Virus record (IMG/VR): IMGVR_UViG_3300022907_000732
Span: 1 to 48,902 of that record
Direction: 5' to 3' (one strand)
Length of the DNA stretch: 48,902 bases
DNA from: a virus
Shown piece by piece: positions 22,751 through 41,953 of this stretch (positions within the stretch are counted from its first letter, which is position 1; each line of letters begins with the position of its first letter). The notes beneath the pieces were generated by a model. It was not told where the DNA came from. It ran no database searches and was given only the letters and a program-made list of their open reading frames with translations. Made by a program: the position numbers and the translations under genes.

Positions 22751-22986
22751 TGCCGTTATATACAATCATTAATGTCAAGAACGGAGAAACCGAAGACCTA
22801 ATGTGTTCGTATGATTCTCTACAGGAGAAACTGGAAGACTTGGGAGAGGACTGGAGACAACAAGTGGGTGCTCCAAATCTTATTACTCATACAGGTAGTG
22901 TGATTAGTAAAACTTCGGGGGACTGGCAAAACTTAATGACTAAAATTAACAAAGGTTCTGGAAGAGGGAATACCGTCAAATCATGA
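22750..22986 (+). CDS. Small conserved phage protein (FmdB-like layout)
   Basis: 78 residues. It starts MPLYTIINVKNGETEDLMCS and contains QVGAPNLITHTG and KTSGDWQNLMTKI, a pattern of phage proteins related to FmdB-type regulators but without the zinc-binding cysteine pairs. Function unknown. Overlaps panD by one base and phoH by four, so it is translated with them. Confidence 0.55.
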   Translation: MPLYTIINVKNGETEDLMCSYDSLQEKLEDLGEDWRQQVGAPNLITHTGSVISKTSGDWQNLMTKINKGSGRGNTVKS

Positions 22987-23669: not shown

Positions 23670-24130
23670 AATTAAGCAAAAACTTTTCACTCAAAGAGTT
23701 TACAAGGTCAATGACCGCAACTCGTTTGGGTATTGATAACACACCTGAAGGCGAACACTTAACGGCTGCAAAAGAATTATTCACTAATGTGATTCAACCA
23801 GTGAGAGACAAATTTGGTATCACTCGAATCACTTCGGGTTATCGTTCACCAGCACTAAACGAAGCAATCGGTGGTTCTACAAAGTCACAACACTGTAAGG
23901 GTCAAGCTGTTGACTTTGAATGTGACAGGGCAGATAACCTAGTAGTTGCACAGTGGATTAGGGACAATTTAAAATTTGACCAACTCATCTCGGAGTTCTA
24001 TGAAGCAGGTGACCCAACATCTGGTTGGATTCACGTTACTTGGGTAAGTGCAGAACACAATCGTAACAGATGTCTGACCGCAAAACGTGTAGATGGTAAA
24101 GTACAATATAGTGTTGGATTGCCTGAATGA
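23666..24130 (+). CDS. Peptidase M15 endolysin
   Basis: 154 residues. Zinc ligands of the M15A/VanY-type fold: H76 and D83 in SQHCKGQAVDFE and H123 in WIHVTW, preceded by ITSGYRSPALNEAIGG. The enzyme would cut peptidoglycan stem peptides to release progeny. No signal peptide, so a holin (candidate at 15398) is required. Overlaps phoH and the next gene by 4 bases. Confidence 0.9.
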   Translation: MKLSKNFSLKEFTRSMTATRLGIDNTPEGEHLTAAKELFTNVIQPVRDKFGITRITSGYRSPALNEAIGGSTKSQHCKGQAVDFECDRADNLVVAQWIRDNLKFDQLISEFYEAGDPTSGWIHVTWVSAEHNRNRCLTAKRVDGKVQYSVGLPE

Positions 24131-24987
24131 ACTTAATCTTTCAATATATGATTACGAACGAGGAAACCGAGAAACGGAAGTCTGTTCCTGAGTATCCCCA
24201 AGGTACACGTTCTGAGTTATATCGTGTAACTGGTGACCTGTCGGCAAAATCATTTAGAGAGTATGCCAGAGATATTGGTGTGCATCATCAATACTCAACC
24301 AAACAAGTATTTACTGCGGGCAAGACTGGTTCAACTGTGCTGCTTTTCGAGTGCTTGCGTATCATATATGACCCAATATATGACCGCTATGATAAGATTG
24401 CGTTTATCGACAGTGACATTATCTGCAACACACGAGAGAACATTTTTGACCAAACCAATGGTTATGATGTGACGGGTGTCTTTGAATCTGAGATACGTTC
24501 TGGTACGGATGGTGGATACAATACTTGGGACTACAGTGACAAGATTAAGAAACAGTTGATTACCAAGTATGAACGTAACGGTATCCCAATTGTACCCACA
24601 GAATCCCCATATCGTCCGTCCTGCGTCACTACATTCAATACTGGGGTATTGGTATGGACTAAGGAAGCACGTCTCAAAGCGAGAGAGTGTTTCGATGACT
24701 GGTATGAATATATGGCGGATGGGGACAAACACGGTGACCCATTCTGGTTGAATAACGACCAACCCTTTATCTCTGGCCAGTTGACCAAACATGGGTTCAA
24801 CATTCAGAGTATAGACCAGAAATGGAATGATACCCCAACCCACTGGAAAGATGACCGTGGATATGACATGAACTTTCTCCACTACACTGGTGGTGGTAAT
24901 AAGGTTGTCATGTTGGATGATTATGAAGCTGATAAATTCAGGTATCTCGTAACCGATGAATACAGGAATCCTTGGCAAGAGCCATAA
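24127..24987 (+). CDS. GT-A type glycosyltransferase (GT8-like)
   Basis: 286 residues. DKIAFIDSDIICNTRENIFD carries the D-x-D metal and sugar-nucleotide site in the strand-turn context of GT8/GT-A enzymes; FNTGVLVWTKEAR is the usual acceptor-side motif, and MNFLHYTGGG the C-terminal H-x-x-G-type element. No membrane segment. It resembles the proteins at 29891 and 39678 and opens the sugar-enzyme island. Acceptor and donor unknown. Confidence 0.8.
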   Translation: MNLIFQYMITNEETEKRKSVPEYPQGTRSELYRVTGDLSAKSFREYARDIGVHHQYSTKQVFTAGKTGSTVLLFECLRIIYDPIYDRYDKIAFIDSDIICNTRENIFDQTNGYDVTGVFESEIRSGTDGGYNTWDYSDKIKKQLITKYERNGIPIVPTESPYRPSCVTTFNTGVLVWTKEARLKARECFDDWYEYMADGDKHGDPFWLNNDQPFISGQLTKHGFNIQSIDQKWNDTPTHWKDDRGYDMNFLHYTGGGNKVVMLDDYEADKFRYLVTDEYRNPWQEP

Positions 24988-24991
24988 ACGC

Positions 24992-25020
24992 TTGACAAAA
25001 CATGTTTATCTTGTTATAAT
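24992..25020 (+). promoter_or_regulatory. Consensus sigma70 promoter
   Basis: TTGACA (24992-24997), 17 bp, TATAAT (25015-25020): exact consensus in both boxes. Transcription should start near 25027. Confidence 0.85.
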
Positions 25021-25062
25021 ACTAACATGATGAAAAAAGAACCATTAACAAAAGGAAAAGAA

Positions 25063-25644
25063 GTGCTAAGTCAGTACCATAAGGTAATACTTACAGATGC
25101 AGATGGTGTTCTCCTGAACTGGGGATATGCCTTCGATGTGTGGATGACCGAGAAAGGTTATGTCGCAGAAGACAAATTAAAGTATGATATCGCAGAAATC
25201 TACGGTATCACTAAAACAGAATCTAAGAAACTAGTCAGAGAGTTCAACGAGTCTGCCCATATGGGTTTTGTGCCTCCGTTAAGAGATGCAATCCAGTATG
25301 TCAGAAAGTTGCACGAAGAACACGGTTATGTGTTTCACCTGATTACGTCAATGAGTAAAGACGAGAACGCACAGAAACTAAGAACAATGAACATTCAGAA
25401 GTTGTTCGGTGAGACTGCGTTTACCAAGTTCATCTACCTCGACACTGGGGCAGACAAGGATGAGGTATTGAGTCAATACGAAGGAACAGATTACACTTGG
25501 GTTGAAGACAAGGTTGAGAACGCACACGCTGGTGCAAACTTTGGTCTGGATTCTATTGTCATGGAACATGGATACAACATGGACGATGACAGTTTCCCAC
25601 TCATGAAGGGTTGGAAAGACGTGTACGAGTACCTAGTCGGTTAA
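25063..25644 (+). CDS. HAD-family phosphatase
   Basis: 193 residues from GTG 25063. This start has AAGGAA six bases upstream, whereas the ATGs at 25027/25030 lie at the predicted transcription start and lack a ribosome site; they would add 12 residues. KVILTDADGVLLNW is HAD motif I (D-x-D), VFHLITSMS motif II, and YTWVEDKVENAHAGANFGL the motif IV region. The cap arrangement recalls 5'(3')-deoxyribonucleotidases or small sugar phosphatases. Cytoplasmic. It could trim nucleotide or sugar phosphates for the island. Confidence 0.8.
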   Translation: MLSQYHKVILTDADGVLLNWGYAFDVWMTEKGYVAEDKLKYDIAEIYGITKTESKKLVREFNESAHMGFVPPLRDAIQYVRKLHEEHGYVFHLITSMSKDENAQKLRTMNIQKLFGETAFTKFIYLDTGADKDEVLSQYEGTDYTWVEDKVENAHAGANFGLDSIVMEHGYNMDDDSFPLMKGWKDVYEYLVG

Positions 25645-25664
25645 AACCTCTTATATATAACTAC

Positions 25665-27179
25665 ATGAAAAGATATGTAGGTTACTCAGAATATTACCAT
25701 GACGCTGCAATGGCCATCGTTAACCCCGATGGTTCAGTCGAATGGGCATCCCAATCAGAACGTTATAGTGGTAGAAAACACGATGACTTAATACACCCAC
25801 CTATGTGGGAGTTTGTCAACAGAGAAGACCACGTAACTTTCTACGAAGACATTGATTTACGAAGAGAGAAGATGGGCGGTTTCCGAACCTTTGGTGGTTG
25901 GTCTGACCGTGGATTTCTAAACGAAAAAGCAGAACAAAGCACTCCAATGCGTAACTCATTGATGTTTGATTCTTTCAATCTACATCATGAAAGTCATTGT
26001 GCTCTTGCATTCTTTACCCGACCTTGGGAATCAAAAGAAGATACTGTTTGTGTTTCTGTGGACGGTTCAGGCGAACTCGAATCAATCGCAATCTATGACC
26101 ACAACCTTAAACCAATTAAAAAAATTATGTGGCCTCAGTCCTTGGGTTCACTCTATGGTCAAGTCGTTGTATCATTAGGATATCAAAATCTCAGAGATGA
26201 ATATATCATCATGGGTCTTGCGTCCTATGGCAAACCCGATGACACCCTCTACGAAATACTATACAACGCTTACCACTGGTATGAAAGTGACCATGGGTTG
26301 AGGGTTAAACAGATTGTAGATTTTGAGGGTGGTTCAATTGCAGAAAGCCCCCTGTCATCAAAATTTGTTCAGTACGGAGAAAGAATTAATGGTAGGTGTA
26401 AGTACATTTCACAAGAAGATGCTTCCGCAACTATACAAAAATTCTTTGAGGATGAAGTCCTTGAGATTATGAAAGAAGCAAGGAAGTATGGTTCTAAACT
26501 AGTTTATGGTGGAGGGTGCGCTCAGAACGTTACTGCAAACTCTAAGATTTATGAATTGTTTGATGAGATGCATATCGCAATTGCACCCAATGACGCTGGT
26601 AATGCTCTGGGGTGTGCTGCATACACATGGCACAAAGAGACTGGTGGAACACACCTGACATGGTCACCATACCTTGGTCACAACATTGACCGAGAGATAG
26701 ACCCCAAAGAAGTTGCACAATACCTTGTAGATAATAAAGTGTGTGGTGTCGCAAATGGACGTGCAGAGTATGGCCCTCGTGCGTTAGGCAACCGTTCTCT
26801 CCTTGCAGACGTAAGATTCGATGTGAAGGATACGGTAAACGATATCAAGCGTAGACATCGATTTAGACCCTTTGCCCCCGCTATTCTATCTGAACATGCA
26901 GAAGAATACTTTGATGGCCCAATGAACAAGTATATGCAATTCATCGCAAAGGCAAAACACGACTATTCGTCTGTTACCCATGTCGATGGAACAGCAAGAG
27001 TTCAACTAGTGACTCCAGACTGTGAATCAGTCCTTCGTCAAATACTAGAAGAATATTATAAATTAACAGGTGTACCGATGTTACTAAATACATCACTGAA
27101 CATTCGTAACAAACCTATGGTCAATACCATAGAAGATGCAATCGAATGGGAAAAGAAATATAAAGTAAAGGTGTTTTAA
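25665..27179 (+). CDS. Carbamoyltransferase (NodU/CmcH family)
   Basis: 504 residues from ATG 25665. N-terminal Kae1-like ATPase fold: GYSEYYHDAAMAIV, HHESHCALAFF (metal histidines), VSVDGSGELES, QSLGSLYGQVVVSLGY. C-terminal YrdC-like part: GVANGRAEYGPRALGNRSLL and RFRPFAPAILSEHAEEYF, which are diagnostic. The family uses carbamoyl phosphate and ATP to carbamoylate hydroxyl groups of sugars or antibiotics. In this setting the acceptor is probably a sugar of the phage glycan. Complete. Confidence 0.92.
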   Translation: MKRYVGYSEYYHDAAMAIVNPDGSVEWASQSERYSGRKHDDLIHPPMWEFVNREDHVTFYEDIDLRREKMGGFRTFGGWSDRGFLNEKAEQSTPMRNSLMFDSFNLHHESHCALAFFTRPWESKEDTVCVSVDGSGELESIAIYDHNLKPIKKIMWPQSLGSLYGQVVVSLGYQNLRDEYIIMGLASYGKPDDTLYEILYNAYHWYESDHGLRVKQIVDFEGGSIAESPLSSKFVQYGERINGRCKYISQEDASATIQKFFEDEVLEIMKEARKYGSKLVYGGGCAQNVTANSKIYELFDEMHIAIAPNDAGNALGCAAYTWHKETGGTHLTWSPYLGHNIDREIDPKEVAQYLVDNKVCGVANGRAEYGPRALGNRSLLADVRFDVKDTVNDIKRRHRFRPFAPAILSEHAEEYFDGPMNKYMQFIAKAKHDYSSVTHVDGTARVQLVTPDCESVLRQILEEYYKLTGVPMLLNTSLNIRNKPMVNTIEDAIEWEKKYKVKVF

Positions 27180-27512
27180 ATGGAAGAAAATAAAGATATG
27201 CAAAGAGATTTTTATCATCCCGCAGATTCAAATGGGGACGGTAAAGTCTCGGATAGAGAACAGGACATGTATTTTGAGTTCAAAAGAAAGGAACTAGAAG
27301 ACAAAGATGCAATGCGTGACGCACAACGTAAGATGGCATGGTTTGCCCTCTATGGTATGTTGTTATATCCCTTTGCAGTTGTTTTGACTAATCTACTAGA
27401 CCTGACCCAATCGGGTATTATTCTGGGTGATATGGCTCCAACATACTTTGTATCGGTTGCCGCTATCGTTGCTGCATTCTTTGGTGGACAAGTATTCGCA
27501 AATAAGAAGTAG
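27180..27512 (+). CDS. Membrane protein with EF-hand-like loop
   Basis: 110 residues. DSNGDGKVSDREQDMY (18-33) is a canonical calcium-loop pattern; two hydrophobic segments follow (WFALYGMLLYPFAVVLTNLL and FVSVAAIVAAFFGGQVFA). Related small proteins with two membrane segments occur in marine phages and have been considered holin-like. It starts directly after the carbamoyltransferase stop. It is the only membrane protein inside the sugar island. Confidence 0.65.
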   Translation: MEENKDMQRDFYHPADSNGDGKVSDREQDMYFEFKRKELEDKDAMRDAQRKMAWFALYGMLLYPFAVVLTNLLDLTQSGIILGDMAPTYFVSVAAIVAAFFGGQVFANKK

Positions 27513-27515
27513 ATA

Positions 27516-28319
27516 ATGGAAAAGGTTAGGTGGAGAGGTACTTGGGGTGTTGGTGATGCTATGCAAGCCCTCAACTGTTGTCATAACTATTCTTTTCATA
27601 ACAAGAAGAAAGTTAATCTAGAAATGCATTGGGAACACGGTGAGGATTATCTTCACCATCCCGATGACCCCGAAACAATCATTCAAAGAATGGAATGGAT
27701 TCACAATCAATATCATCGACAAGATGATGTTACTCTCACCCACGTCTATAACTCTGACCTGTTCGAACACGGTAATGTAAACCCAAACAAAAGAAAAGAC
27801 CGATTCTATTTTGATTCAAATGCGTTTGACCCAAAGGAATCTGCTCCTAATGACTGGGTGTTCAAACCCGAAGCCTTTGTCCCCAAGAAAAAGAAGATAG
27901 TTATATGGACACCTCATTATAATAGTGAACCACCAAGAAAGTGGAAAAGGTTCTTGACAAAAGATGATTGGGGTGTTATAATAAGCTCTCTGCGCTGGGA
28001 GGGTTGGATACTAGTTGAATTGACCTATAGAACACCTATTAAAGATGTGTTCAAACAGATACAAGAAGCTGATTTTATAGTCTGTTACGATGGTATGTGG
28101 CATTATATTGCACGAAACTTTGGTAAACCTTTGTTCGTACCATCATGGGAACAGATTACTTATTTCAATACACCTCAAGCAGTAACAAGACCAAATAGAC
28201 ATGAGGTACTAGATTTCTTTGGAGATGGTAATGAATCATTCACACCCAATCTCAATGAGATGAAATCTAAAGCACAAGACTATATAGACATGTTACAAGA
28301 AAGATACTATGAAAGATAA
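27516..28319 (+). CDS. Glycosyltransferase-like protein (GT9/GT-B-like)
   Basis: 267 residues. The N-terminus WRGTWGVGDAMQALNC matches the glycine turn of GT9 heptosyltransferases (G-x-x-G-D), and EADFIVCYDGMWHYIARNFG with KPLFVPS matches the C-terminal donor-site pattern (D-x-G ... H-x-A ... GKP). It is shorter than full GT9 enzymes (about 320-350). No membrane segment. An exact consensus promoter lies inside it (27954). Confidence 0.6.
   Translation: MEKVRWRGTWGVGDAMQALNCCHNYSFHNKKKVNLEMHWEHGEDYLHHPDDPETIIQRMEWIHNQYHRQDDVTLTHVYNSDLFEHGNVNPNKRKDRFYFDSNAFDPKESAPNDWVFKPEAFVPKKKKIVIWTPHYNSEPPRKWKRFLTKDDWGVIISSLRWEGWILVELTYRTPIKDVFKQIQEADFIVCYDGMWHYIARNFGKPLFVPSWEQITYFNTPQAVTRPNRHEVLDFFGDGNESFTPNLNEMKSKAQDYIDMLQERYYER
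27954..27982 (+). promoter_or_regulatory. Internal consensus sigma70 promoter
   Basis: TTGACA (27954-27959), 17 bp, TATAAT (27977-27982), inside the GT9-like gene in the sense direction, 368 bp before the radical SAM gene. Confidence 0.6.
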
Positions 28320-28349
28320 AAAGATACTACAAGTAATAGGGGATTTAGT

Positions 28350-29309
28350 ATGAAAATTGATAGAGCAGTAATTGAAATAAACGGTGGGTGTAACTACTCG
28401 TGTACTATGTGTCCTCAAGATATGAGAACAGGTGGACGTGATAAAAGATTCCTACGTAAGATGAACCTATTAGAGTTTGAGAACAACGTAGCTGATTGTG
28501 CAAAACATGGACTCAATGTAGTTAACCTAGAAGGTAGTGGAGAACCCACACTGAACAGAAATCTACCTGAGTACATTAAGATTGTTAAGAAGTATGGTGC
28601 GAAGTGTTTCATGTTCTCTAATGGATTCCGTATGCACGGTGACTTTATGAAGAAGTGTGTTGATGCGGGATTAGACTTCTATAGATTTTCATTCATTGGA
28701 TACAATCCTGATAAATATCAAGAATGGATGCATAATACTCAAGGCGGTAACTTTGATTTCATTTGTAAGAACATCAAAGAGATGCAAGAATATGTAAAAG
28801 AAACGGGTAGTGACTGTGTGGTCGCAACCTACCATCTTATAACTGATAATGATAATTTAGAGGAGGAACTTAATGAATATAAAGCAGTGGTTAATAGACT
28901 TGGAGTTAAAACAGAAATTTGGAAGATGCATAACTGGTCTGGAGTCTATGATAACAAAGACAAACGTCAAGGTAAAGTTAAAACGTGCGGTAGGCCATTC
29001 TCTCCTGATGTTGTTATACGTGCTGGCGGTCTTGACGGGAAAACTGGGGCAGTGGCTCCTTGTTGTCAAGTCTTGGGCAGAGACGAAGAGGCAGTCCTTG
29101 GTCATACGAGTGAGAAGTCTATAGAGGATATATGGAACGATATTCCATACACCGAACTTAGGGAACAACACACAACAGGAGATTATCCCGACTATTGTAA
29201 GGGGTGTGACTTCCTTCTAGATGACCCTGAAGTATTAGTCTATAGTAATCACGATAGAGACCTACATAAGATGCATGGAACTGATTTTGACCTTGAAGAT
29301 TACCGATAA
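28350..29309 (+). CDS. Radical SAM protein with SPASM-like C-terminus
   Basis: 319 residues. C14-x3-C18-x2-C21 (GGCNYSCTMC) binds the [4Fe-4S]-SAM cluster; NLEGSGEPTLN is the GGE-like SAM motif. C-terminal cysteines (CGRPFSPD, APCCQVLG, DYCKGCDF) form a SPASM-type auxiliary-cluster region. Such enzymes epimerise, dehydrogenate or crosslink peptides or sugars. No precursor peptide is obvious nearby, so sugar or nucleotide modification is more likely here. Followed by a GT25-like gene. Confidence 0.9.
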   Translation: MKIDRAVIEINGGCNYSCTMCPQDMRTGGRDKRFLRKMNLLEFENNVADCAKHGLNVVNLEGSGEPTLNRNLPEYIKIVKKYGAKCFMFSNGFRMHGDFMKKCVDAGLDFYRFSFIGYNPDKYQEWMHNTQGGNFDFICKNIKEMQEYVKETGSDCVVATYHLITDNDNLEEELNEYKAVVNRLGVKTEIWKMHNWSGVYDNKDKRQGKVKTCGRPFSPDVVIRAGGLDGKTGAVAPCCQVLGRDEEAVLGHTSEKSIEDIWNDIPYTELREQHTTGDYPDYCKGCDFLLDDPEVLVYSNHDRDLHKMHGTDFDLEDYR

Positions 29310-29316
29310 TATATGG

Positions 29317-29901
29317 ATGATACAGATACCTGATAGTAAGGTATCTCAACATTATGCAAAACAGGCAATACAAAGTTGGGAATCTCACGGTTTTCAAGTA
29401 AATCTATTTGATGCAGTCACTCCAAAGACTCTACATCTATATGACGATATACAGCTTGACCAGTATCACGGTAAACGTGATTTCACTGATACTGAAATGG
29501 GTTGTTGGTATAGTCACTATCTGTTATGGGAGAAATGTGTTGAAGAACGAACGCCCATAACAATTATAGAACACGATACCGAATGTCTTACTTCTGATAT
29601 GCCTATTATCGCACCATACTTTTCAATCTGTGATTTTCAGAATAATGAAGAGTTTCATAACTATTGTGATAGGTTTGAAGGACACCCTTATTGGTGGCAT
29701 TACAAGTTATGCCCTATTACTTCTGGATATTATATTGAACCAGAACAGGCCGAAGACTTGTTATTAGAATGTGTGACCAAGAGACATACAAGATATGTTG
29801 ATGATATAATGTTTGATAAATTAAATAAAGATTTAAATTTAATTGCGGATTACTGTAGACCTATATATGATACAAAGGTAGGAGGAACAGTTGACCACTA
29901 G
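29317..29901 (+). CDS. GT25-like glycosyltransferase
   Basis: 194 residues from ATG 29317; TTG 29293 or ATG 29275 would extend it into the previous gene and no start has a clear ribosome site. The sequence FDAVTPKTLHLYDD, TDTEMGCWYSHYLLWEKCVE and TPITIIEHDTEC follows the LPS GT25 (LgtB-like) pattern, in which G-C-x-x-S-H precedes an E-x-D metal site. It is a relative of the proteins at 38328 and 39038. Acceptor unknown. Cytoplasmic. Confidence 0.7.
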   Translation: MIQIPDSKVSQHYAKQAIQSWESHGFQVNLFDAVTPKTLHLYDDIQLDQYHGKRDFTDTEMGCWYSHYLLWEKCVEERTPITIIEHDTECLTSDMPIIAPYFSICDFQNNEEFHNYCDRFEGHPYWWHYKLCPITSGYYIEPEQAEDLLLECVTKRHTRYVDDIMFDKLNKDLNLIADYCRPIYDTKVGGTVDH

Positions 29902-30685
29902 AATGATATTCCAAGTGTCGGTGGGTAAACCATCTAAACTATACGAACACTGTATTGAATCAGTCGCACATTATTGTGCGAAGTATGACATTGAACATAT
30001 CGTATTGACTCAACCTAAACTAAGAATCAAACCTGATATCTTTACCAGTGGACGTAGTGAAGAATCCTACATGAAATATGGTGGATATCTTCCTATCTTT
30101 GAAAAGGAAAATGCATTTGACTATCTCGATAGATTTGACCAGATTGCAATTGTGGATGCCGACATTTACATCCGAAATGATGCACCCAATATATTTGATG
30201 ATTTTGGTACTGACCACGCATTTGGGGCAGTAGTAGAGCGTGAAATGGATATACAGTCTTGGTATGGAAACAAGATTATAAACTATTCACAGATGCAGTA
30301 CCGACACCTACACAGTTCTGGCCATGGAGACTTCAAACCAAACAATCTGGGATACGAGTTCTTTAATATGGGGTTGATTCTCCTGAACTCCAAGTTATTC
30401 AAACCATACCTCAAGGGACAAGACCCTCACAGTTTCCTGAACCGTATGGAATTTAAAGACTTTGTAGACGGTGTTGGTGCATACAAGTGGAGTACTGACC
30501 AGACCCTACTAAACTATTTCCTGAAGAAGTATAGAATACCTACCAAACATATGGAAGGTAAATGGAATGGACTATTCAGTGCAATCAATAATGTAAAAGA
30601 TTGTAACTTTGTGCATTTCTTTCTAAAGGATAAACTCCCTGACGGTGGAGAAAATGTTGACCAGTTAATGAGTCAAATTATATAA
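29891..30685 (+). CDS. GT-A type glycosyltransferase (GT8-like)
   Basis: 264 residues from TTG 29891, preferred because GGAGGA lies 5 bases upstream; ATG 29903 is the alternative. DQIAIVDADIYIRNDAPNIF is the D-x-D donor site and EFFNMGLILLNSKLF the acceptor-side motif; NFVHFFLKDKLPDG is the C-terminal histidine loop. Closely patterned on the enzyme at 24127. Its stop overlaps the late promoter for the next block. Confidence 0.78.
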   Translation: MTTRMIFQVSVGKPSKLYEHCIESVAHYCAKYDIEHIVLTQPKLRIKPDIFTSGRSEESYMKYGGYLPIFEKENAFDYLDRFDQIAIVDADIYIRNDAPNIFDDFGTDHAFGAVVEREMDIQSWYGNKIINYSQMQYRHLHSSGHGDFKPNNLGYEFFNMGLILLNSKLFKPYLKGQDPHSFLNRMEFKDFVDGVGAYKWSTDQTLLNYFLKKYRIPTKHMEGKWNGLFSAINNVKDCNFVHFFLKDKLPDGGENVDQLMSQII

Positions 30686-30688
30686 ATA
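30681..30688 (+). promoter_or_regulatory. T4-type late promoter (TATAAATA)
   Basis: Exact TATAAATA 50 bp before ATG 30739. It would place the ferritin-like gene and the overlapping genes through 41823 under late control. Confidence 0.7.
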
Positions 30689-30738
30689 CTATAGACAATA
30701 CCGTCAATTATATTAATAGAGTGAATAGGAGAACCCTA

Positions 30739-31437
30739 ATGTTAAACCCGAACGATTTTGTGAAGAAGATTCGCAAAGATAACCAAGCCCTGTTCGAAGC
30801 GTCTAAGATGAACACTAAGGCGTATTTCGAAGGTGACCTTCCTGAAGAGGAGATGGTCAATCACTTCATTGGTCGCATGGTCAATGAACGTATGAACATG
30901 CAAGAAATCTCAATGCAGATTGCAAATGCATCCGATGACGCAGACCCTAAAGAGTTAGAACTTCTTTCTAAACAAGCAGCAGATGAAGCAAAACATTACC
31001 GCATGGTTCGAGAAGTAATCGAACACATTAAAGGTGAGAAGATTGATGTAGTCCAAGCACTTGAAGATGAGAGAAAGGCAAACACCGCAAAAGGTGCTGC
31101 ACTTCTAGAGAAGTATGATGCACAAGAAGATGAGGCAGTCCTTGCCGCATATCAACTTGTTGCGGAAGGACGTGCAGAAGCTGTCTGGAATCAGATGGCA
31201 GACACCATTCAAGATGAATTCATCTCAACTCGTTATCGTGAGATTGCGAAAGACGAAGGTTTCCACAGTGCAATCGGTGGATACTCGTTACGTAAACTTG
31301 CGACAGATGAAGAGACTCAAAGTCGTGTCCAACGTGTTGTTGACGCAATGCGTAAAGACCTATTTGAAATCTCTTGTAGAAATCAAGTTGAAGCAGAAGG
31401 TTCGAGAGAACTGGTAAACGCAGCTTACGGTTGGTAG
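30739..31437 (+). CDS. Ferritin-like di-iron protein
   Basis: 232 residues from ATG 30739 (AGGAG 6 bases upstream; a GTG at 30721 is open but weaker). A four-helix pattern with paired carboxylate/histidine ligands is visible: E50 region, E83-x2-H86 (DEAKH), E143 to E147 and E173-x2-H176 (DEGFH). These are the two E-x-x-H motifs of rubrerythrin/ferritin-like oxygenase folds. It may oxidise a substrate with O2 or scavenge iron or peroxide. Located right after a late promoter, so abundant late synthesis is expected. Substrate unknown. Confidence 0.75.
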   Translation: MLNPNDFVKKIRKDNQALFEASKMNTKAYFEGDLPEEEMVNHFIGRMVNERMNMQEISMQIANASDDADPKELELLSKQAADEAKHYRMVREVIEHIKGEKIDVVQALEDERKANTAKGAALLEKYDAQEDEAVLAAYQLVAEGRAEAVWNQMADTIQDEFISTRYREIAKDEGFHSAIGGYSLRKLATDEETQSRVQRVVDAMRKDLFEISCRNQVEAEGSRELVNAAYGW

Positions 31438-32654: not shown

Positions 32655-33270
32655 GAAACTACTCATAATTACAGGGCCCCAAGGTTCTGGAAATCATCTA
32701 TTCAGCAAGGTGTTCAGTTATCATTCAGATGTAGTGGGATGGGACTTTGGTGACAAGTACTGGATACCATCTGACGAAGAACCCTTTGCGGAGTGTTGGG
32801 TTGACCCATCCAAGACAAAGAGTCAATTGACCCAAGACTATGTGGTTGCAAATGTTAGTGTACCATTTGTCTATGATGGCGTCAAGCAAATTCCTCAAAT
32901 ACAAGAAGTTGTTTACGAAGCACAAGATGCGGGTTATGAAGTGAAGGTCTGTATCGTAACAAGAGACCGAACCATTAACGAAGAACAACAACTCAGAGTT
33001 CGTAAGGAAGTAACCCTACCAACCGCCTTGCAGTACTACTACAACCTAGATGCGACTATAGAATTTATATCACACGAATCACTCTACCTTTATGGTGGTG
33101 CATATCTGAAATGGTTAGGTAAAGTTCTTGACTTTCCGATTGCCTATAGTGACGAACGAATATTGAAAGACATCAAAGAGAACCAGAATGCAAAGTACGT
33201 GAAACACGTAGAGGAACACTGGTTGGATGAACATGTATGGAATGGGATAAGACCAAAAAATGAAAGGTAA
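32632..33270 (+). CDS. P-loop (sulfotransferase/kinase-like) protein
   Basis: 212 residues. The N-terminus KLLIITGPQGSGNHLFSKVF contains a P-loop-like G-x-x-G-S-G-N-H, as in PAPS-binding or nucleoside kinase folds; the central VKVCIVTRDRTINEEQQLRV holds an R-D-R that may act as the second phosphate-binding site. No strict Walker lysine is present, which favours a sulfotransferase-like reading. It is patterned like its neighbours at 33260 and 8274. Substrate unknown. Confidence 0.6.
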   Translation: MSDKHGSKKLLIITGPQGSGNHLFSKVFSYHSDVVGWDFGDKYWIPSDEEPFAECWVDPSKTKSQLTQDYVVANVSVPFVYDGVKQIPQIQEVVYEAQDAGYEVKVCIVTRDRTINEEQQLRVRKEVTLPTALQYYYNLDATIEFISHESLYLYGGAYLKWLGKVLDFPIAYSDERILKDIKENQNAKYVKHVEEHWLDEHVWNGIRPKNER

Positions 33271-33829
33271 GTATTTATTAATGACAGGAGCGCCAGGCAG
33301 TAGATGGTCTGGGGTTGCAAATAACATTCACGTATCTAGTAGTTTTGACCAGACTGATTGCACTGAAGAGAGGTCATTCTCTCATCATAATGGATTAGTA
33401 CATGGCGGTGCATATTTTGACCCCATGATGGAGTTTCCGTTTCGAAAAGAAGAATGGGACTTGCCTTTTTCTGGTGAAGGTGTTAGACTAATAAAGTCAC
33501 ACACATTAGCTACATCTCTACTTTACTATGTTGACCATCCTATTGTTATGGTATTGAGAAATGATTATGAGTGTTGGACATGGTGGAACGAGTGTGGTGG
33601 TTTTGATATCCCCTATCCCAACTATGCATGGTACAAAAATCAAGACAATATGTTTGCTCAGATTACGTTGCAAAATATGTCTATAAATTCTTTCATATAT
33701 AACCATAGAGATAAAGTAACTAAATGTGAAAGTAATCTTGAAGTACTAAAAAAATTAGGATTAGACTCTAACGTGACAAAAGATAATTATAGTAAAAAAG
33801 ATGTGAGTGTATATGTCTACCAACCTTAA
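33260..33829 (+). CDS. P-loop (sulfotransferase-like) protein
   Basis: 189 residues. KYLLMTGAPGSRWSGVANNI is a strand plus phosphate-binding loop; VRLIKSHTLATSLLYYV and PIVMVLRNDYECWTWWNECG match the K-S-H and R-N-D positions of sulfotransferase cores. Shorter than full enzymes. It overlaps the gene before by 11 and the next by 17 bases. The role is probably group transfer onto a sugar or protein; direct evidence is only the fold pattern. Confidence 0.6.
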   Translation: MKGKYLLMTGAPGSRWSGVANNIHVSSSFDQTDCTEERSFSHHNGLVHGGAYFDPMMEFPFRKEEWDLPFSGEGVRLIKSHTLATSLLYYVDHPIVMVLRNDYECWTWWNECGGFDIPYPNYAWYKNQDNMFAQITLQNMSINSFIYNHRDKVTKCESNLEVLKKLGLDSNVTKDNYSKKDVSVYVYQP

Positions 33830-34358
33830 TCCACATATGGATTTTTTAAAAGATTACTTTACATACGACTGGCCAAGTTCACGTACTGCGGGACTTGATA
33901 GATATTACTGGACGGGGTTTAAATTAATTGAAGAAATCAGAGAAGGGGAATCAGTTCTGGATGTTGGTTGTGGTCTCAATCCTCTTAAGCGTCATATTAC
34001 CAATCTTCATGGAATTGATATCACAGACATAGGTTCCGATGAACAGGTTGCAATTGAAGACTACCATACAGATGAGAAGTTTGATGTTGCGTTTGCACTG
34101 GGTAGTATCAACTTTGGTGATTGGGAACTAATCCAACAACAGACTAAGTCAATGTGTAATGCATTGAAACAGAAGTCACGTATCTATTGGAGATGTAATC
34201 CCGCACACCGTGACCATGGTAATGATAAGGTACAGGATGTGCCTTTTTGGCACTGGACACTAGACCACCACTTGTTGTTATCAAAACAAAACGGGTTTGA
34301 GGTGACTGAGTTTATGCAAGACCTTAATCGATATTATGTGAAATGGGAAAGAACATGA
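33813..34358 (+). CDS. SAM-dependent methyltransferase, class I
   Basis: 181 residues from ATG 33813. ESVLDVGCGLNPLKRHI is motif I of the SAM-binding Rossmann fold; HGIDITDIGS holds the acidic motif II and FDVAFALGSINF motif IV. Compact fold without extra domains, like small-molecule or sugar O-methyltransferases. Its stop overlaps the next start (ATGA). Confidence 0.82.
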   Translation: MSTNLNPHMDFLKDYFTYDWPSSRTAGLDRYYWTGFKLIEEIREGESVLDVGCGLNPLKRHITNLHGIDITDIGSDEQVAIEDYHTDEKFDVAFALGSINFGDWELIQQQTKSMCNALKQKSRIYWRCNPAHRDHGNDKVQDVPFWHWTLDHHLLLSKQNGFEVTEFMQDLNRYYVKWERT

Positions 34359-35050
34359 TGGGGAAAAAAATATTTATTCATATCCCCAAGAACGGAGGAA
34401 TGACCATAAGGAGAAATCCCGAACTGTCAAGTAAGGTGTTTCTGGCACAGCCAAAGAACCATATCAATCCTGAGTATACCCAAGGTCTTGTTTCTAAAAT
34501 GAAACAGACTAAAGACCATGAGGGTTATGAACATGCTCGTTGGAGAGACTGGAAGGTAGAACTACGAAATGAAGTTCCTGCTTTTGCCTTCGTTCGTAAT
34601 CCTTGGGACAGGGTTGTGTCTCGTTACTTTTTCGCAAAGAAAGTTATTGAAATAGAAGAGAACTCTGACCACTACGGTGAGACTGATTACTGTGACTGTT
34701 CATCCTTCGAAGCTTTTCTAGAGGAAAGACATAAGTGGGGAAACGAAGAATATATGTGGCATCGTGCAGTTCGTGGTTGGTATAATGCATTTGATTATGT
34801 CGAGAACGGAAATGGTAAAGTCGTTTGTGATATACTTCGATTTGAAAACTATAATGAAGATATTAAACTGTATCTTGGAACTCTGACTAACCCACCACCA
34901 CGTAATGTGACTGCGGTAAACAAGGGTTCTTATCAAGATATATACACTAAAGAGACTATACAGATTATTGCAGACTGGTATAAAAAAGATATAGACTATT
35001 GGGGTTTTGATTTTGATACAGGTGCAACCAAAAACATTTGGAATGGATAA
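34355..35050 (+). CDS. Sulfotransferase (Sulfotransfer_2 family), tandem copy 1
   Basis: 231 residues from ATG 34355, which overlaps the previous stop; ATG 34343 would add four residues. IFIHIPKNGGMTI is the 5'-phosphosulfate loop and FVRNPWDRVVSRYFF the 3'-phosphate site of PAPS-dependent sulfotransferases. It would sulfate a carbohydrate hydroxyl or amine using PAPS from the host. The last 36 residues are nearly identical in pattern to those of the next gene, from a local duplication. Confidence 0.85.
   Translation: MMGKKIFIHIPKNGGMTIRRNPELSSKVFLAQPKNHINPEYTQGLVSKMKQTKDHEGYEHARWRDWKVELRNEVPAFAFVRNPWDRVVSRYFFAKKVIEIEENSDHYGETDYCDCSSFEAFLEERHKWGNEEYMWHRAVRGWYNAFDYVENGNGKVVCDILRFENYNEDIKLYLGTLTNPPPRNVTAVNKGSYQDIYTKETIQIIADWYKKDIDYWGFDFDTGATKNIWNG
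34937..35045 (+). repeat. Tandem duplication unit, copy 1
   Basis: 109 bp encoding the C-terminus of the first sulfotransferase and the start codon of the second. It aligns without gaps to 35523-35631 (offset 586). Confidence 0.8.
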
Positions 35051-35636
35051 GGTTATATTCATACATATTCCTAAGAATGGAGGAATGACTATACAACACA
35101 ACGGTGTGTTTAAAGATAAAGTTCATATCCATTTATGGAAAAAAGAACATCGTCATTGGCGATATCTTGATATGAAAGACGATATATTAAAAAAGTATAA
35201 AACTTTTGCTATAGTAAGAAACCCTTGGTCAAGAATTGTATCTCGTTATATGTGGTCAAAACTTGATTGGCCAAAAGAATATCCAAAATTTACTTCGTTT
35301 GAAGATTTTATTGAACAACGAAATGAATTTCCAACCGAGGATTTTTATATGTGCCCTATTCGTAGTTGGTTAACTCAATACGATTATGTTGTTGAAGAAG
35401 ACGAAAAAATTAATAGTAACATTCTTCGTTTTGAAAACTATGATGAGGACATAAATTTATATTTTAATTTAAAACATAATGTGACACCTAGTAATGTTAC
35501 AGGATACGATATATCTTACAGGGATATATACACTAAAGAAACTATACAGATTGTAGCCGATTGGTATCAAAAGGACATTGACCATTGGGGATTTGACTTT
35601 GATACAGGTGCAACGAGGAACTATTGGAATGCTTAA
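35043..35636 (+). CDS. Sulfotransferase, tandem copy 2
   Basis: 197 residues from ATG 35043, overlapping the previous stop by 8 bases (ATGGATAA). VIFIHIPKNGGMTI and IVRNPWSRIVSRYMW give both PAPS-binding sites. About 35 residues shorter than copy 1, mainly between these sites. The C-terminus (DIYTKETIQIVADWYQKDID) matches copy 1 closely. Two paralogues side by side suggest sulfation at two positions or of two acceptors. Its codons look more AT-rich than those of copy 1. Confidence 0.85.
   Translation: MDKVIFIHIPKNGGMTIQHNGVFKDKVHIHLWKKEHRHWRYLDMKDDILKKYKTFAIVRNPWSRIVSRYMWSKLDWPKEYPKFTSFEDFIEQRNEFPTEDFYMCPIRSWLTQYDYVVEEDEKINSNILRFENYDEDINLYFNLKHNVTPSNVTGYDISYRDIYTKETIQIVADWYQKDIDHWGFDFDTGATRNYWNA
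35523..35631 (+). repeat. Tandem duplication unit, copy 2
   Basis: 109 bp matching 34937-35045 without gaps. It covers the C-terminus of the second sulfotransferase and the start codon of the following methyltransferase. Confidence 0.8.
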
Positions 35637-36246
35637 ACAATTATTTGACAAATACAAGTGCGATAAGGGCACAGAGAAACATCATTACTATAAAGAGTAT
35701 GAACCATACATGGAGTCTGTAAGAGAAGAACCTATCAATCTTCTTGAGATTGGTACGTTTAAGGCAGCTTCTACTCGTGCATTTCATGAATACTTTCCTA
35801 ACGGAACAATTTACACTATTGATATCTTTACTCGCACCAATCCCAAAGACCTAGATATTCTGAGTGAAGAACGTGTCAAGTGGTTAAAAGCAGATTCTAT
35901 GGACGCATCTCTTGGTACGAAAATGAGGAATGCGTGGGGTGATGTCGAGTTTGATTTTATTATCGATGATGGCGCTCACTGGCCCGAAGCTAATCGACTG
36001 ACCTTTGAGAACTGTATCCCGTTCCTAAAAGATGATGGAACATACTTTATCGAAGATATATGGCCTATGCATCGTATGAGTCAAGCAGAGTTACAACACC
36101 CTTGGATTCAGAATAGATTAGACCTGTATGACATGTTGAAACATAACCGTCTTATGACTAAACTCTCAGAATATAGTCACAAGACATACGATAGACGCAA
36201 GGAAACTAAGTGTGGTGACACTTATATTATAGCGGTAAATAAATGA
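35629..36246 (+). CDS. SAM-dependent methyltransferase (CmcI/Methyltransf_24-like)
   Basis: 205 residues from ATG 35629, overlapping the previous stop by 8 bases (ATGCTTAA). INLLEIGTFKAASTRAF is motif I, IYTIDIF motif II, and FDFIIDDGAHWPEANRLTFE the metal-binding D-D-G-x-H segment typical of cephalosporin hydroxylase/rhamnosyl O-methyltransferase relatives. Probably a sugar O-methyltransferase. Stop overlaps the next start. Confidence 0.85.
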   Translation: MLKQLFDKYKCDKGTEKHHYYKEYEPYMESVREEPINLLEIGTFKAASTRAFHEYFPNGTIYTIDIFTRTNPKDLDILSEERVKWLKADSMDASLGTKMRNAWGDVEFDFIIDDGAHWPEANRLTFENCIPFLKDDGTYFIEDIWPMHRMSQAELQHPWIQNRLDLYDMLKHNRLMTKLSEYSHKTYDRRKETKCGDTYIIAVNK

Positions 36247-37589
36247 TAAAGACAATTCTATTTGACCTAGACGGTGTTCTGGTCAGTACTAAGAAAATAC
36301 ATTTCGATGCTTTGAATGAAGCGTTGGATAAGTTTGGTTATCCACAAATAACAGTAAAGGAACATCTATCTAAGTATGACGGTCTGACTACAGAAGATAA
36401 GTTGGAAAGGCTGGGTGTATCGAAGGACGTGATTGATAAACTTCAAATACACAAACAATCTGTCACTTACTACAAAATGAACACTATCAAACCGAACAAG
36501 GACATTACTGAAGTCTTTGGTAAACTTAAAGAACTTGGATTTACTATTGGTATCTGTTCTAATGCTATCGGTAAGACTGTACAAAAATGCGTAGAGATGT
36601 TACAACTTGATGAGTATGTGGATGTTGTTCTGAGTAGTTACGATGTTACCAACCCAAAACCACACCCTGAGATTTGGTGGAATGCAATGATAGGTTTGGG
36701 TGTACATCCTTCTGAGTGTATCATCATCGAAGATTCTCCGACAGGATTGATGTCTGCATATTCTAGTGGTGTACCTGAACATCAAATTCTACGAGTTAGT
36801 TCTCCCGAAGATGTTACTCTAAGTTTGGTTGATAGAATTCAAAATGGCAAAAATACGACACTTAAATGGGTTGACCCAAAGATGAACGTATTGATTCCTA
36901 TGGCGGGTGCGGGTAGTCGATTTGCAAAAGCTGGATATAGTTTTCCCAAACCTTTGATTGATGTCAATGGTAAACCAATGATTCAGACTGTGGTCGAGAA
37001 CCTTGGTATTGATGCAAACTATATCTTTATTGTACAGAAGGAACACCGAGAAAAGTATAACTTAGACTCTATGTTAAATTTGATTGCACCAAACTGTAGA
37101 ATCATTGAAGTAGATGGTGTTACCGAAGGTGCAGCTTGCACGACATTACTTGCAGAAGAGTATATTGCCAATGAACAACCACTGATTATTGCAAACTCTG
37201 ACCAATGGGTAGATTGGAATCCAATTGAGTTTATGTATAAGATGCAAGAACTAAACGCAGATGGTGGTATTGTTACTTTTAAAGCAACACACCCTAAGTG
37301 GAGTTATGCAAAAGTTGATAATGATGGCATGGTAACCAAGGTTGCCGAAAAAGACCCAATCAGTGATAATGCGACTGTTGGTTTCTATTACTGGAAACGT
37401 GGTGAGGATTATGTTGAGTCTGCAAAAGATATGATTGCTATGCAGAAACGAGTGAACGGTGAGTTCTATGTGTGTCCTGTATTCAATCAGGCAATTCTAA
37501 TGGGTAAGAAAATCTTTGCACATAATGTGAATGAGATGTGGGGACTTGGTACACCCGAAGACCTAGAGACATACTTACGTGGTTGCTAA
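36243..37589 (+). CDS. HAD phosphatase-sugar nucleotidyltransferase fusion
   Basis: 448 residues, two domains. Residues 1-205 form a HAD beta-phosphoglucomutase/phosphatase: LFDLDGVLVS (motif I), ICSNAIG (motif II), KPHPEIW (motif III) and IIEDSPTG (motif IV). Residues 213-448 form a nucleotidyltransferase: IPMAGAGSRFAKAGYSFPKP, ANSDQWVDWN (metal aspartate) and GFYYWKRGEDYV. Together they could isomerise or dephosphorylate a sugar phosphate and activate it as an NDP-sugar, making the donor for the glycosyltransferases around it. Complete. Confidence 0.9.
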   Translation: MIKTILFDLDGVLVSTKKIHFDALNEALDKFGYPQITVKEHLSKYDGLTTEDKLERLGVSKDVIDKLQIHKQSVTYYKMNTIKPNKDITEVFGKLKELGFTIGICSNAIGKTVQKCVEMLQLDEYVDVVLSSYDVTNPKPHPEIWWNAMIGLGVHPSECIIIEDSPTGLMSAYSSGVPEHQILRVSSPEDVTLSLVDRIQNGKNTTLKWVDPKMNVLIPMAGAGSRFAKAGYSFPKPLIDVNGKPMIQTVVENLGIDANYIFIVQKEHREKYNLDSMLNLIAPNCRIIEVDGVTEGAACTTLLAEEYIANEQPLIIANSDQWVDWNPIEFMYKMQELNADGGIVTFKATHPKWSYAKVDNDGMVTKVAEKDPISDNATVGFYYWKRGEDYVESAKDMIAMQKRVNGEFYVCPVFNQAILMGKKIFAHNVNEMWGLGTPEDLETYLRGC

Positions 37590-38347
37590 TGAAGATTGCA
37601 TTGTGTCTATCGGGTAGATGGAATGAGTTTTGTGATTCAAAGTGGGTAGAACGTTCGAGGGAAATTCTTCCTCACGATAAGATGTTCACTGGTTTATGGA
37701 ATGGTCAAAGTGCGGTGGATACCACCGTAGATTTCTATTTTGATGAACCCGAAAACAAATATCATCCTGTATTTGATACTGAAGCCTATCCTGATGATGC
37801 GTCTCGTTTAAGACGGGATATCTTTCCTAAACTACTTAAAAATGCCGAAGAGGGAGACACTAGTCATAGTCAGTTGAAACACGCACATGCATCTGCGAAC
37901 TGGCACAAACAGATTCTCATACACAATGAGATGATGAAGTCAGTACCACAAGAATACGATATGATTATTCGTACACGATTTGATGTAATAGTATCTGACC
38001 AATTACCTTGGGATGATATTATCAAAGATGCATACGAAAGAATAATTCCGAAAGGATTCAATTGTATGAACTACTATGGCACTCATGACTTCAATAAACT
38101 TAAAGGTATGAGTAAGGAGACTACTTACTATATCAATGATGCGTTGATAATCCATCCAAGAGAGTGTTGGGATACGGACTTAGTGGATTCTCTATATAAG
38201 GATAAGAAGTTAAAAAGTGCAGAAGAGGGATGGTATCAAATACTATCCGAACCCTTTGGATTTTATCATGAGAGTTATCATGGTGGATGTTACCTATCAG
38301 AGAGATGGGAGTATGTGAGAGATGTTGATGAAAGCCTTCATAATTAG
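37589..38347 (+). CDS. Glycosyltransferase-like protein
   Basis: 252 residues from ATG 37589, which shares a base with the previous stop. MKIALCLSGRWNEFCDSKW is the typical opening of a family of uncharacterised, probably GT-A, sugar transferases, and EYDMIIRTRFDVIVSDQLPW contains the R-x-R-x-D motif of that group. The C-terminus (ALIIHPRECW) is similar to acceptor loops. No membrane segment. Confidence 0.65.
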   Translation: MKIALCLSGRWNEFCDSKWVERSREILPHDKMFTGLWNGQSAVDTTVDFYFDEPENKYHPVFDTEAYPDDASRLRRDIFPKLLKNAEEGDTSHSQLKHAHASANWHKQILIHNEMMKSVPQEYDMIIRTRFDVIVSDQLPWDDIIKDAYERIIPKGFNCMNYYGTHDFNKLKGMSKETTYYINDALIIHPRECWDTDLVDSLYKDKKLKSAEEGWYQILSEPFGFYHESYHGGCYLSERWEYVRDVDESLHN

Positions 38348-39041
38348 TATGATAAACAACCATGAGTCCACAGTTGCGACTCGTATGGTTATTGAATCTA
38401 TTAAGAAAACTAAAAGTAAATTAGAACCAATTATTCTACCCGCAACTACGCCTATGACAATAGGTGACGGAATGGAGTCTTTGGAGATGTCTGGTATAGC
38501 TTGGACATATCCTTTGGACGAACACCAAGACGGTCTTGATATGAAAACAGGCCTGCGTCTTACTCATTACAAAACTGCGAACCATCCAAATCGAGTTGCG
38601 TGTATGATATCTCATATGAGATGTTGGCAGAAAGCAATCGACCTTGATGAGACCATTGTTGTACTGGAACATGATGCACTGTTTGCCAGACAATTAAAAC
38701 CTAATGACTTGACAGAAGAGTGGAAAGGTGGTATAATAGGGCTTAATGACCCAAGAGGTGCAACTAGAAGGTCTCAAGAGTTTCATAGAAAAGTATCATC
38801 ATTCGTTGGCCTACAACCAGTTCCTAGTGTAGATGACTGGGACGTACCCCAAGGTCTTGCGGGTAATTCCGCATATATGATATCACCCAAGGGTGCTAAG
38901 AAACTACTAGATAAGGTGAAAGATATCGGAATGTGGCCTAATGATGCATTGATGTGTAAACAGATGTTTCCGTGGTTACAGGTTGTGTATCCTTATTATA
39001 CAACTATACAGAGGGGGTTGAAGTCAACCACAACACAATGA
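38328..39041 (+). CDS. GT25-like glycosyltransferase
   Basis: 237 residues from ATG 38328 (ATG 38322 two codons earlier). MKAFIISMINNHES resembles the N-terminus of the next gene. VACMISHMRCWQKAI and TIVVLEHDALF are the S-H and E-x-D elements of GT25; GNSAYMISPKGAKKLL is the following acceptor helix. It overlaps the previous gene by 20 bases and carries a consensus promoter internally. Probably transfers a hexose to a glycan. Confidence 0.75.
   Translation: MKAFIISMINNHESTVATRMVIESIKKTKSKLEPIILPATTPMTIGDGMESLEMSGIAWTYPLDEHQDGLDMKTGLRLTHYKTANHPNRVACMISHMRCWQKAIDLDETIVVLEHDALFARQLKPNDLTEEWKGGIIGLNDPRGATRRSQEFHRKVSSFVGLQPVPSVDDWDVPQGLAGNSAYMISPKGAKKLLDKVKDIGMWPNDALMCKQMFPWLQVVYPYYTTIQRGLKSTTTQ
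38709..38737 (+). promoter_or_regulatory. Internal consensus sigma70 promoter
   Basis: TTGACA (38709-38714), 17 bp, TATAAT (38732-38737), inside the GT25-like gene in the sense direction, about 300 bp before the next gene. Confidence 0.6.
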
Positions 39042-39685
39042 AAGCATTTGTAATTACAATTAAAGACAATCCACAATCATTAAAGGTTGCGGAACGTTGT
39101 ATCGAATCTGGATGGAGACATGAACTTCAAATTAAAATGTTTGATGCCATTACTCCTAAAGATAATCCTGTAGAACTATTAAAGACAAGGGGTATTGACC
39201 CCGTACAATTTGATGAGAAGTATTCTCGTAACTTGAATTGTATTTCGGCATTCCTATCACACTACGCATTGTGGGAAGCCTGTTCCAAGGGTAACGAGAA
39301 CTTTGTTATCTTTGAACATGATGCCGTGATGGTGGCACCACTACCATTTGTGTTTCCTAACTATGTGATGAATATGGGAAAACCATCTTACGGTAAGTGG
39401 AACACTCCACCAATGTTAGGGATTAATCCGTTAACAACTAAACGATATTTTCCTGGCGCTCATGCGTACATGGTGACTCCAGCTGGTGCAAGACTATTGG
39501 TGGAGAATGCGCCACTGTATGCAAAACCAACTGACGTTTATTTAAATCTGACCACATTCCCTTGGTTACAAGAGTGTTATCCTTTCGTTGCAGAAGCTAG
39601 AGATACTTTCACGACTATTCAAGTTGAAGAAGGTTGTAAAGCAAAACATAATTGGAAAGAAGGATATGAAATCATCGATGCGTGA
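39038..39685 (+). CDS. GT25-like glycosyltransferase
   Basis: 215 residues from ATG 39038, overlapping the previous stop by 4 bases. MKAFVITIKDNPQSLKVAER, FDAITPKDNPVELL, CISAFLSHYALWEAC, NFVIFEHDAVM and PGAHAYMVTPAGARLL align in order with GT25 (LPS glycosyltransferase) landmarks and with the paralogue upstream. Three such paralogues lie in the window (also 29317). Acceptors probably differ. Confidence 0.78.
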   Translation: MKAFVITIKDNPQSLKVAERCIESGWRHELQIKMFDAITPKDNPVELLKTRGIDPVQFDEKYSRNLNCISAFLSHYALWEACSKGNENFVIFEHDAVMVAPLPFVFPNYVMNMGKPSYGKWNTPPMLGINPLTTKRYFPGAHAYMVTPAGARLLVENAPLYAKPTDVYLNLTTFPWLQECYPFVAEARDTFTTIQVEEGCKAKHNWKEGYEIIDA

Positions 39686-40343
39686 AGTATTTTTAACAGG
39701 GTGTGACGTAAACACCGAATGGCAATTGCCGTGGTTTATTAAGAAGTATAGAGAACACAATACGACTCCAATTATTTGTGCTGACTTTGGTATGAGCAAG
39801 GACGGTCGTAAACTTGCAGAAGAACACTTTGATTTGGTTATTGGTATCATGAGTGAAGCACAAGGGTGGTTCAAGAAACCTCGTGCAATTCTGGACGCAA
39901 CCAAACTAGATGATGTTGAAAAGGTTTGTTGGTTGGACACTGATTGTGAAGTTACCGATGACATCTCAACTATTTTTGATTTGACCGAAAAGGGTAAACT
40001 GGGTATGGTCAAAGACAGGCCTTGGTCTACTCGTAGAGATGAACTTGGAGAATGGTATAACTCTGGTGTAGTCGCAGTAGAAGGAACGCCTAATATCCTA
40101 CGTGCGTGGGCAGACGAATGTATTCGCAATCCTGTACAGGGTGACCAAGAGGTTTTATATCTTATGATGGGTGGTGATGCCCTCAAGAAGTTATCATGCA
40201 TTCAACCTATACCACACTCATATAACACTTTAAGATTAGACTACATAGATAACATACAAGTAAAGAATCCAAAGATTATCCATCACACGGGTAAGAAGGG
40301 TAATGAAGTAATAAGGAGTCAAATGAATGAATTATCTAATTGA
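39678..40343 (+). CDS. GT-A type glycosyltransferase-like protein
   Basis: 221 residues from ATG 39678, overlapping the previous stop by 8 bases (ATGCGTGA). VEKVCWLDTDCEVTDDISTI contains a D-x-D donor site, WYNSGVVAVEGTPN the acceptor-side motif, and KIIHHTGKKG the C-terminal histidine loop. Layout like the GT8-type enzymes at 24127 and 29891. Last sugar transferase of the island's main run. Confidence 0.72.
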   Translation: MREVFLTGCDVNTEWQLPWFIKKYREHNTTPIICADFGMSKDGRKLAEEHFDLVIGIMSEAQGWFKKPRAILDATKLDDVEKVCWLDTDCEVTDDISTIFDLTEKGKLGMVKDRPWSTRRDELGEWYNSGVVAVEGTPNILRAWADECIRNPVQGDQEVLYLMMGGDALKKLSCIQPIPHSYNTLRLDYIDNIQVKNPKIIHHTGKKGNEVIRSQMNELSN

Positions 40344-41943: not shown

Positions 41944-41953
41944 ATCAATCACT

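Follow-up and report, generated by a model that had tools for sequence, protein, structure and literature searches.

A sugar-enzyme island in a marine T4-like virus

The linear 48.9-kb IMG/VR virus record IMGVR_UViG_3300022907_000732 (the window, meaning its full length) belongs to a marine T4-like virus of bacteria with a block of about 22 enzyme genes that is under selection and can be swapped. The block, called here the island, consists of 22 open reading frames (ORFs), i01 to i22, all on the + strand and overlapping or nearly so, at positions 24127-40343. An earlier note, made from the letters of this DNA alone, had described a tightly overlapping glycan-tailoring island here. That gene order was borne out and the island exists as seen; because many independent contigs preserve the order, the arrangement is not a chance one. 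T4-like core genes of the window encode NrdA, NrdB, a single-stranded DNA-binding protein of the T4 gp32 type and a gp33-like protein with Kyanoviridae relatives. Among named relatives the closest is Phage C48C1, a member of the Kyanoviridae of 156 kb, and the close relatives are metagenomic contigs only.

Families were called using Pfam, PHROGs and NCBIfam, and tRNAs using ARAGORN and Rfam. The counts of loci given below refer to the best 80 of 327 virus stretches having the radical S-adenosylmethionine (SAM) enzyme i06, whereas absence of families was tested in nine long relatives, including C48C1 (listed as complete). Two of these nine end in 123-base terminal repeats and are therefore probably complete. 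The 149-kb relative G006 is probably complete owing to its exact 123-base terminal repeat; of the island genes it lacks only i04 and i16 and has the others in order. Graded by their carbamoyltransferases, relatives L003-L005 are near-identical to the window, L006-L010 are at about 76% and L014 and L016 at about 45%.

An invariant glycosyltransferase and radical SAM pair

The core of the island is formed by i05 (27516-28319) and i06 (28350-29309), which occur together in 79 of the 80 loci. i06 is a radical SAM/SPASM enzyme (PF04055, 5e-16; PF13186, 1e-8) that is unusually conserved (72-86% identity across the family) and has BtrN as its top PDB profile match (4.5e-5). A peptide substrate for i06 was considered and rejected, there being no space for a precursor ORF between neighbouring genes in the window.

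i05 has 267 residues, consists of a GT-B domain only and falls into no sequence family; its profile found no match among PDB sequences. Its assignment as a heptosyltransferase-like glycosyltransferase comes from an AlphaFold (AF2) model (pLDDT 91), which was compared with the PDB using Foldseek. The top match was TibC (E=1.4e-4, probability 1.0, query TM-score 0.48) followed by WaaC (1.1e-2). TibC is a cytoplasmic protein O-heptosyltransferase (PMC4358343). i05 shares the GT-B fold of the TibC/AAH autotransporter heptosyltransferases (PMC4358343), and its invariant residues D14, K144, R172 and W195 are, by eye, plausible counterparts of TibC D110, K230, R286 and W305. In contrast to TibC, i05 lacks the N-terminal beta-barrel, and no cysteine is invariant across 25 homologues, indicating that the four-cysteine iron finger of TibC is also absent.

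Cassettes, a late promoter and purifying selection

In the relatives exchangeable cassettes surround the i05-i06 pair. The i09-i14 block behaves as one such cassette (19-24 loci per gene), an additional 2-oxoglutarate-Fe(II)-like oxygenase adjoins the carbamoyltransferase in 12 loci and a second radical SAM protein is added in 20, the last two being named by eye. An apparent oxygenase/carbamoyltransferase fusion in S-SCSM2R was set aside as a probable misannotation. The island of L010, a 76% relative, also contains an alternative-oxidase (PTOX)-like gene (16468-17031).

The late promoter that had been noticed in mid-island was confirmed as the T4-type sequence TATAAATA at 30681-30688 (+ strand), which precedes i09 in 24 of 24 loci. 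These loci comprise 12 distinct contexts having a common leader and a differing upstream gene, with about 0.009 occurrences expected per gene. The motif is overrepresented in the window (8 seen versus 3.1 expected) and missing before nearly all other island genes; in C48C1 it is found 28-72 bases ahead of many virion genes. As the motif is found before i09 in all of these 24 loci but before hardly any other gene of the island, a late transcription unit probably starts with i09 and travels together with its promoter.

Island genes are clearly under purifying selection and their function is maintained. Their median ratios of nonsynonymous to synonymous substitution (dN/dS) against orthologues of 70-97% identity were 0.07-0.25, compared with 0.08 for PhoH and 0.13 for the endolysin; these values are approximate because synonymous sites may be near saturation. 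No usable pairs were available for i15 and i16.

Enzyme content

At least seven glycosyltransferase-like proteins had been proposed. Three GT25 enzymes scored above the PF01755 cut-off, i07 (29305-29901, 6e-16), i20 (38328-39041, 6e-13) and i21 (39032-39685, 2e-12), and i05 is added by its fold, whereas the three GT8-like proteins match PF01501 only below the cut-off: i01 (24127-24987, E=0.006, DSD motif, 49/80 loci), i08 (29891-30685, 0.013, DAD motif, 72/80 loci) and i22 (39666-40343, 4e-4, DTD motif). i19 (37586-38347) is a putative glycosyltransferase of no firm family (DUF6492, 0.055 only).

Pfam bore out the proposed carbamoyltransferase, radical SAM enzyme, HAD-nucleotidyltransferase, cupin and amidotransferase. 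The O-carbamoyltransferase i03 (25662-27179; PF16861, 3e-48; PF02543, 2e-32; 58/80 loci) matches GdmN (7e-45) and TobZ (7e-25) in the PDB. i18 (36243-37589) is a HAD phosphatase/mutase (PF13419, 2e-37) fused to a sugar nucleotidyltransferase (PF00483, 2e-11) and is about 50% identical to proteins of S-CAM9 and S-PRM1. A separate HAD phosphatase-like protein, i02 (25027-25644; PF13419, 6e-4; phrog_420, 3e-30), has a 61% identical counterpart in C48C1. The cupin is i11 (31986-32654; PF07883, Cupin_2, 6e-11) and the class I glutamine amidotransferase is i10 (31438-31989; PF00117, 8e-12). The latter resembles gamma-glutamyl-CDP-amidate hydrolase, the top NCBIfam model being NF045546 (5e-16, 59 bits versus a cut-off of 250). 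Given this resemblance phosphoramidate decoration is possible; neither the glutamine kinase nor the CDP-amidate kinase of the methyl phosphoramidate (MeOPN) pathway was recognised among the island proteins, in which no search was aimed at them.

Both clear sulfotransferases of the earlier note belong to Sulfotransfer_2 (PF03567): i15 (34343-35050, 1.2e-6), with a PKNGG loop and a VRNPWDR segment, and its 45% identical paralogue i16 (35046-35636, 8e-8). i16 is a recent gain, found in one of the 80 loci by best match, and matches only two uncultured records. i12 (32632-33270; GPQGSGNH loop, TRDR segment) and i13 (33260-33829; motifs read directly) are sulfotransferase-like, and the several P-loop proteins that had been claimed are P-loop-like, by eye only; i12 gave no Pfam match of value and i13 none. 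The second of the two proposed methyltransferases, i17 (35623-36246; PF13578, Methyltransf_24, 3e-6), is supported, whereas i14 (33807-34358) gave weak MetW/CMAS matches only.

Two genes had been overlooked. i09 (30721-31437) is a ferritin-like, probable di-iron enzyme (PF13668, 0.0075, below the cut-off) with invariant E56, E89xxH92, E149/E153 and E179xxH182, which include two ExxH pairs; its profile matched no PDB sequence. i04 (27180-27512; 42/80 loci) is a small membrane protein of two segments. By hydropathy, no other protein of the island has hydrophobic segments.

Island edges and neighbouring genes

To the left of the island lie, by sequence reading, a PhoH-like ATPase (g33, 22983-23669, + strand; homologue in 68/80 loci) and an M15-type endolysin (g34, 23666-24130, + strand; 36/80 loci). 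A lysozyme-like family is present in 36 loci, including C48C1 where it takes the endolysin position, such that an endolysin of M15 or lysozyme type marks the left edge in most loci. On the right the block probably continues to g60 (41197-41823, + strand), a conserved edge protein found in 19 of the 80 loci and 60% identical in C48C1. The g60 profile matched no PDB sequence and Foldseek gave no PDB match below E=0.02 for its model (AF2 pLDDT 86.5); its assignment as a glycosyltransferase was therefore rejected. Two tRNA-Arg genes (41868-42028, + strand) follow, and a GroES-like co-chaperonin gene lies at the right edge (40939-41193).

Elsewhere in the window are a GTA-holin-like protein with three transmembrane segments (15398-15859), whose homologue in C48C1 occupies the right-hand end of the glycan island there, and a P-loop, sulfotransferase-like protein (8247-8960; 63-83% in relatives). 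A second accessory group (10696-14611 and 19424-20677), kept in G006, encodes fatty-acid-desaturase-like, two acyl-AMP-ligase-like, cysteine-rich and asparagine-synthase-like proteins. An attempt to find the host through metagenome-assembled genomes (MAGs) was abandoned, the three matches being apparently mis-binned viral contigs or distant. One phage contig, L163 (JAAXIF010000028.1, 142 kb), lies in a Sphingobacteriales MAG bin, probably through mis-binning, and gives no host evidence.

A proposed cytoplasmic pathway dependent on the host

There is good support for a cytoplasmic pathway that makes an oligosaccharide and decorates it with carbamoyl, sulfate and methyl groups, the chemistries and their order being our inference. 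The cytoplasmic glycosyltransferases would use nucleotide sugars of the host and those made locally by i18 to build a short oligosaccharide. This would be O-carbamoylated by i03, sulfated by i15 and i16 (and perhaps i12 and i13) from host 3'-phosphoadenosine 5'-phosphosulfate (PAPS) and methylated by i14 and i17, with i06 and i09 oxidizing or rearranging it. The i05-i06 pair would start or define the common step with the cassettes varying the decoration, and the half of the island headed by i09 would be transcribed late. As adenosine 5'-phosphosulfate kinase is absent from the nine long relatives, PAPS would have to come from the host, and a host lacking sulfate activation is thereby argued against.

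Export machinery had been reported missing. No export gene was recognised within the window, and both the Wzx flippase (PF01943) and the initiating transferase PF02397 are absent from all nine long relatives, a difference from loci of the Wzx/Wzy type; Wzy polymerase and WecA-type families were not searched. Glycan tailoring without export genes of its own, coupled with late expression, is thus supported and is strengthened by the relatives.

Candidate acceptors

We tentatively favour reading the island as a modular glycan assembly and tailoring locus, with the TibC-like i05 carrying out cytoplasmic O-glycosylation of a virion protein, the likeliest acceptor. The virion protein is preferred because the core glycosyltransferase model best matches TibC, an enzyme that itself modifies protein in the cytoplasm. 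Late expression and the lack of export genes also speak for it, as does the precedent of phage capsid glycosylation in Che8 (cited in PMC11256854). Decoration of virion proteins, as put forward in the earlier note, is therefore compatible with the sequences and the structural model and mildly favoured by them. Several observations weigh in the other direction. No acceptor protein was identified, and the late promoter evidence covers only the second half of the island. The GT-B heptosyltransferase fold is common to TibC and to WaaC, an enzyme of lipopolysaccharide (LPS), the TM-scores are modest (about 0.48 for TibC versus about 0.41 for WaaC) and the iron finger is missing. Moreover, enzymes of the GT25 and GT8 families often take part in LPS synthesis, a flippase and polymerase could be supplied by the host, and the acceptor of i05 could be a lipid or a sugar.

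The close rival of a virion protein is a host surface glycan (LPS core, O-unit or capsule), which may be remodelled during infection such that superinfection is blocked or progeny are kept away from debris. In that case the enzymes would possibly act on host precursors at the cytoplasmic face, with export by the host machinery. Carbamoyl, sulfate and methyl groups are found on bacterial glycolipids such as Nod factors. The GT25, GT8 and heptosyltransferase-like enzymes are of LPS type, and the cassette exchange resembles that of polymorphic surface-glycan loci. Host surface modification was proposed for the glycosyltransferase clusters of pelagimyophages (PMC7029224), and the cyanophage clusters were termed LPS genes (PMC3037559). 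However, expression of the i09 unit would be late for superinfection exclusion, and the top fold match of i05 is a protein glycosyltransferase. The nine long relatives also carry no Wzx or PF02397 transferase, although host-surface modification could proceed with the flippase that a host has of its own.

It is improbable that the island, like a natural-product cluster, makes a modified lipid or a small molecule, either secreted or kept inside the cell, rather than decorating a macromolecule. The kinship of i03 with antibiotic enzymes, the BtrN match of i06, the ferritin-like i09 and the amidotransferase would fit such a product, as would the acyl-activating enzyme and the desaturase-like gene (by eye) nearby. 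In contrast, no scaffold synthase or exporter was recognisable in the window, and at least seven tandem glycosyltransferases suit an oligosaccharide better.

Phage DNA, the other target named in the earlier note, is disfavoured, and hypermodification by carbamoylation and glycosylation of hydroxymethylated pyrimidines is very improbable. DNA is often a substrate of phage glycosyltransferases, and a phage-like 5-hydroxymethylcytosine (5hmC) carbamoyltransferase of the same superfamily exists (PMC8670742). However, thymidylate synthase (PF00303) and C5-cytosine methylase (PF00145) families were found in none of the nine long relatives, where positive controls worked, although an unrecognised enzyme might carry out hydroxymethylation. 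i03 is 25% identical to the proven 5hmC enzyme and has the canonical GPRALGNRS where that protein (sequence from PMC8670742) has GPRALCNTT; the 5hmC-branch positions correspond to TobZ G421/R423, a numbering taken from the motif and not aligned. The missing families, this motif and the closer relationship of i03 to GdmN and TobZ make DNA carbamoylation by the island unlikely. TET/JBP homologues (PF12851), which would fit a DNA target, are encoded by only two of the nine, C48C1 and G001, far from the island. In C48C1 (49583-53030; L049 84-3531) the homologue adjoins glycosyltransferase-like and UDP-galactopyranose-mutase-like genes, and in G001 (86590-89220) glycosyltransferase- and cytidylyltransferase-like genes (neighbours by eye); these loci are possibly a separate DNA-hypermodification cassette.

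The idea that such clusters are stuffer DNA, functionless host genes that fill the head, was raised for the cyanophage LPS clusters (PMC3037559), but is hardly credible here and largely refuted by purifying selection on all tested genes, the kept order and the conserved late promoter.

Relation to known systems and significance

To call the island a new system, as the earlier note did, is too strong. Marine T4-like phages have already been described as having glycosyltransferase islands at their phoH/tRNA hotspot (PMC3037559, PMC7029224), among them the LPS gene clusters near phoH and tRNAs in the cyanobacterial myoviruses P-SSM2, S-SSM7 and S-SM2 (PMC3037559). These clusters and the S-CAM9 island are likewise rich in glycosyltransferases and lie after NrdAB near phoH and tRNAs, a location matched by the window. 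S-CAM9 has a 50% identical i18 homologue plus a separate Nol-like carbamoyltransferase, whereas the sulfotransferases, the i05-i06 core, i09 with its late promoter and the CDP-amidate-hydrolase-like amidotransferase are on the side of the window. Among 50,697 phage records i06 had one match and i09 none. The pelagimyophage host recognition cluster (PMC7029224) is also a GT8-rich variable region of marine T4-like phages, but sits among structural genes with tail fibres, whereas the window island lies between the endolysin and the SNase/tRNA genes. Che8-type virion glycosylation likewise involves phage-encoded glycosyltransferases, proposed or shown to act on a virion protein; the account of Che8 in PMC11256854 names a couple of these enzymes, with sulfation and carbamoylation not mentioned in that account. 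Thus, sugar-gene blocks at the hotspot are known and it is the enzyme mix of the window island that is new.

The question of whether such sugar islands in marine T4-like phages have a function or are stuffer had been left open (PMC3037559). Selection, the kept gene order and the conserved late promoter show that this island is being maintained and that part of it is probably expressed late. It is conceivable that a lineage of these phages uses the host cytoplasm to O-glycosylate a virion protein with an interchangeable sulfated, carbamoylated and methylated glycan. In this reading i05, as a minimal transferase of the TibC type, would start the glycan, with i06 as its dedicated radical SAM partner and the ferritin-like i09 as a late-expressed enzyme. 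If the idea is true, virions bearing a sulfated glycan bound to protein would have a phage coat of a new kind, and the i05-i06 pair provides a two-gene handle for testing it.

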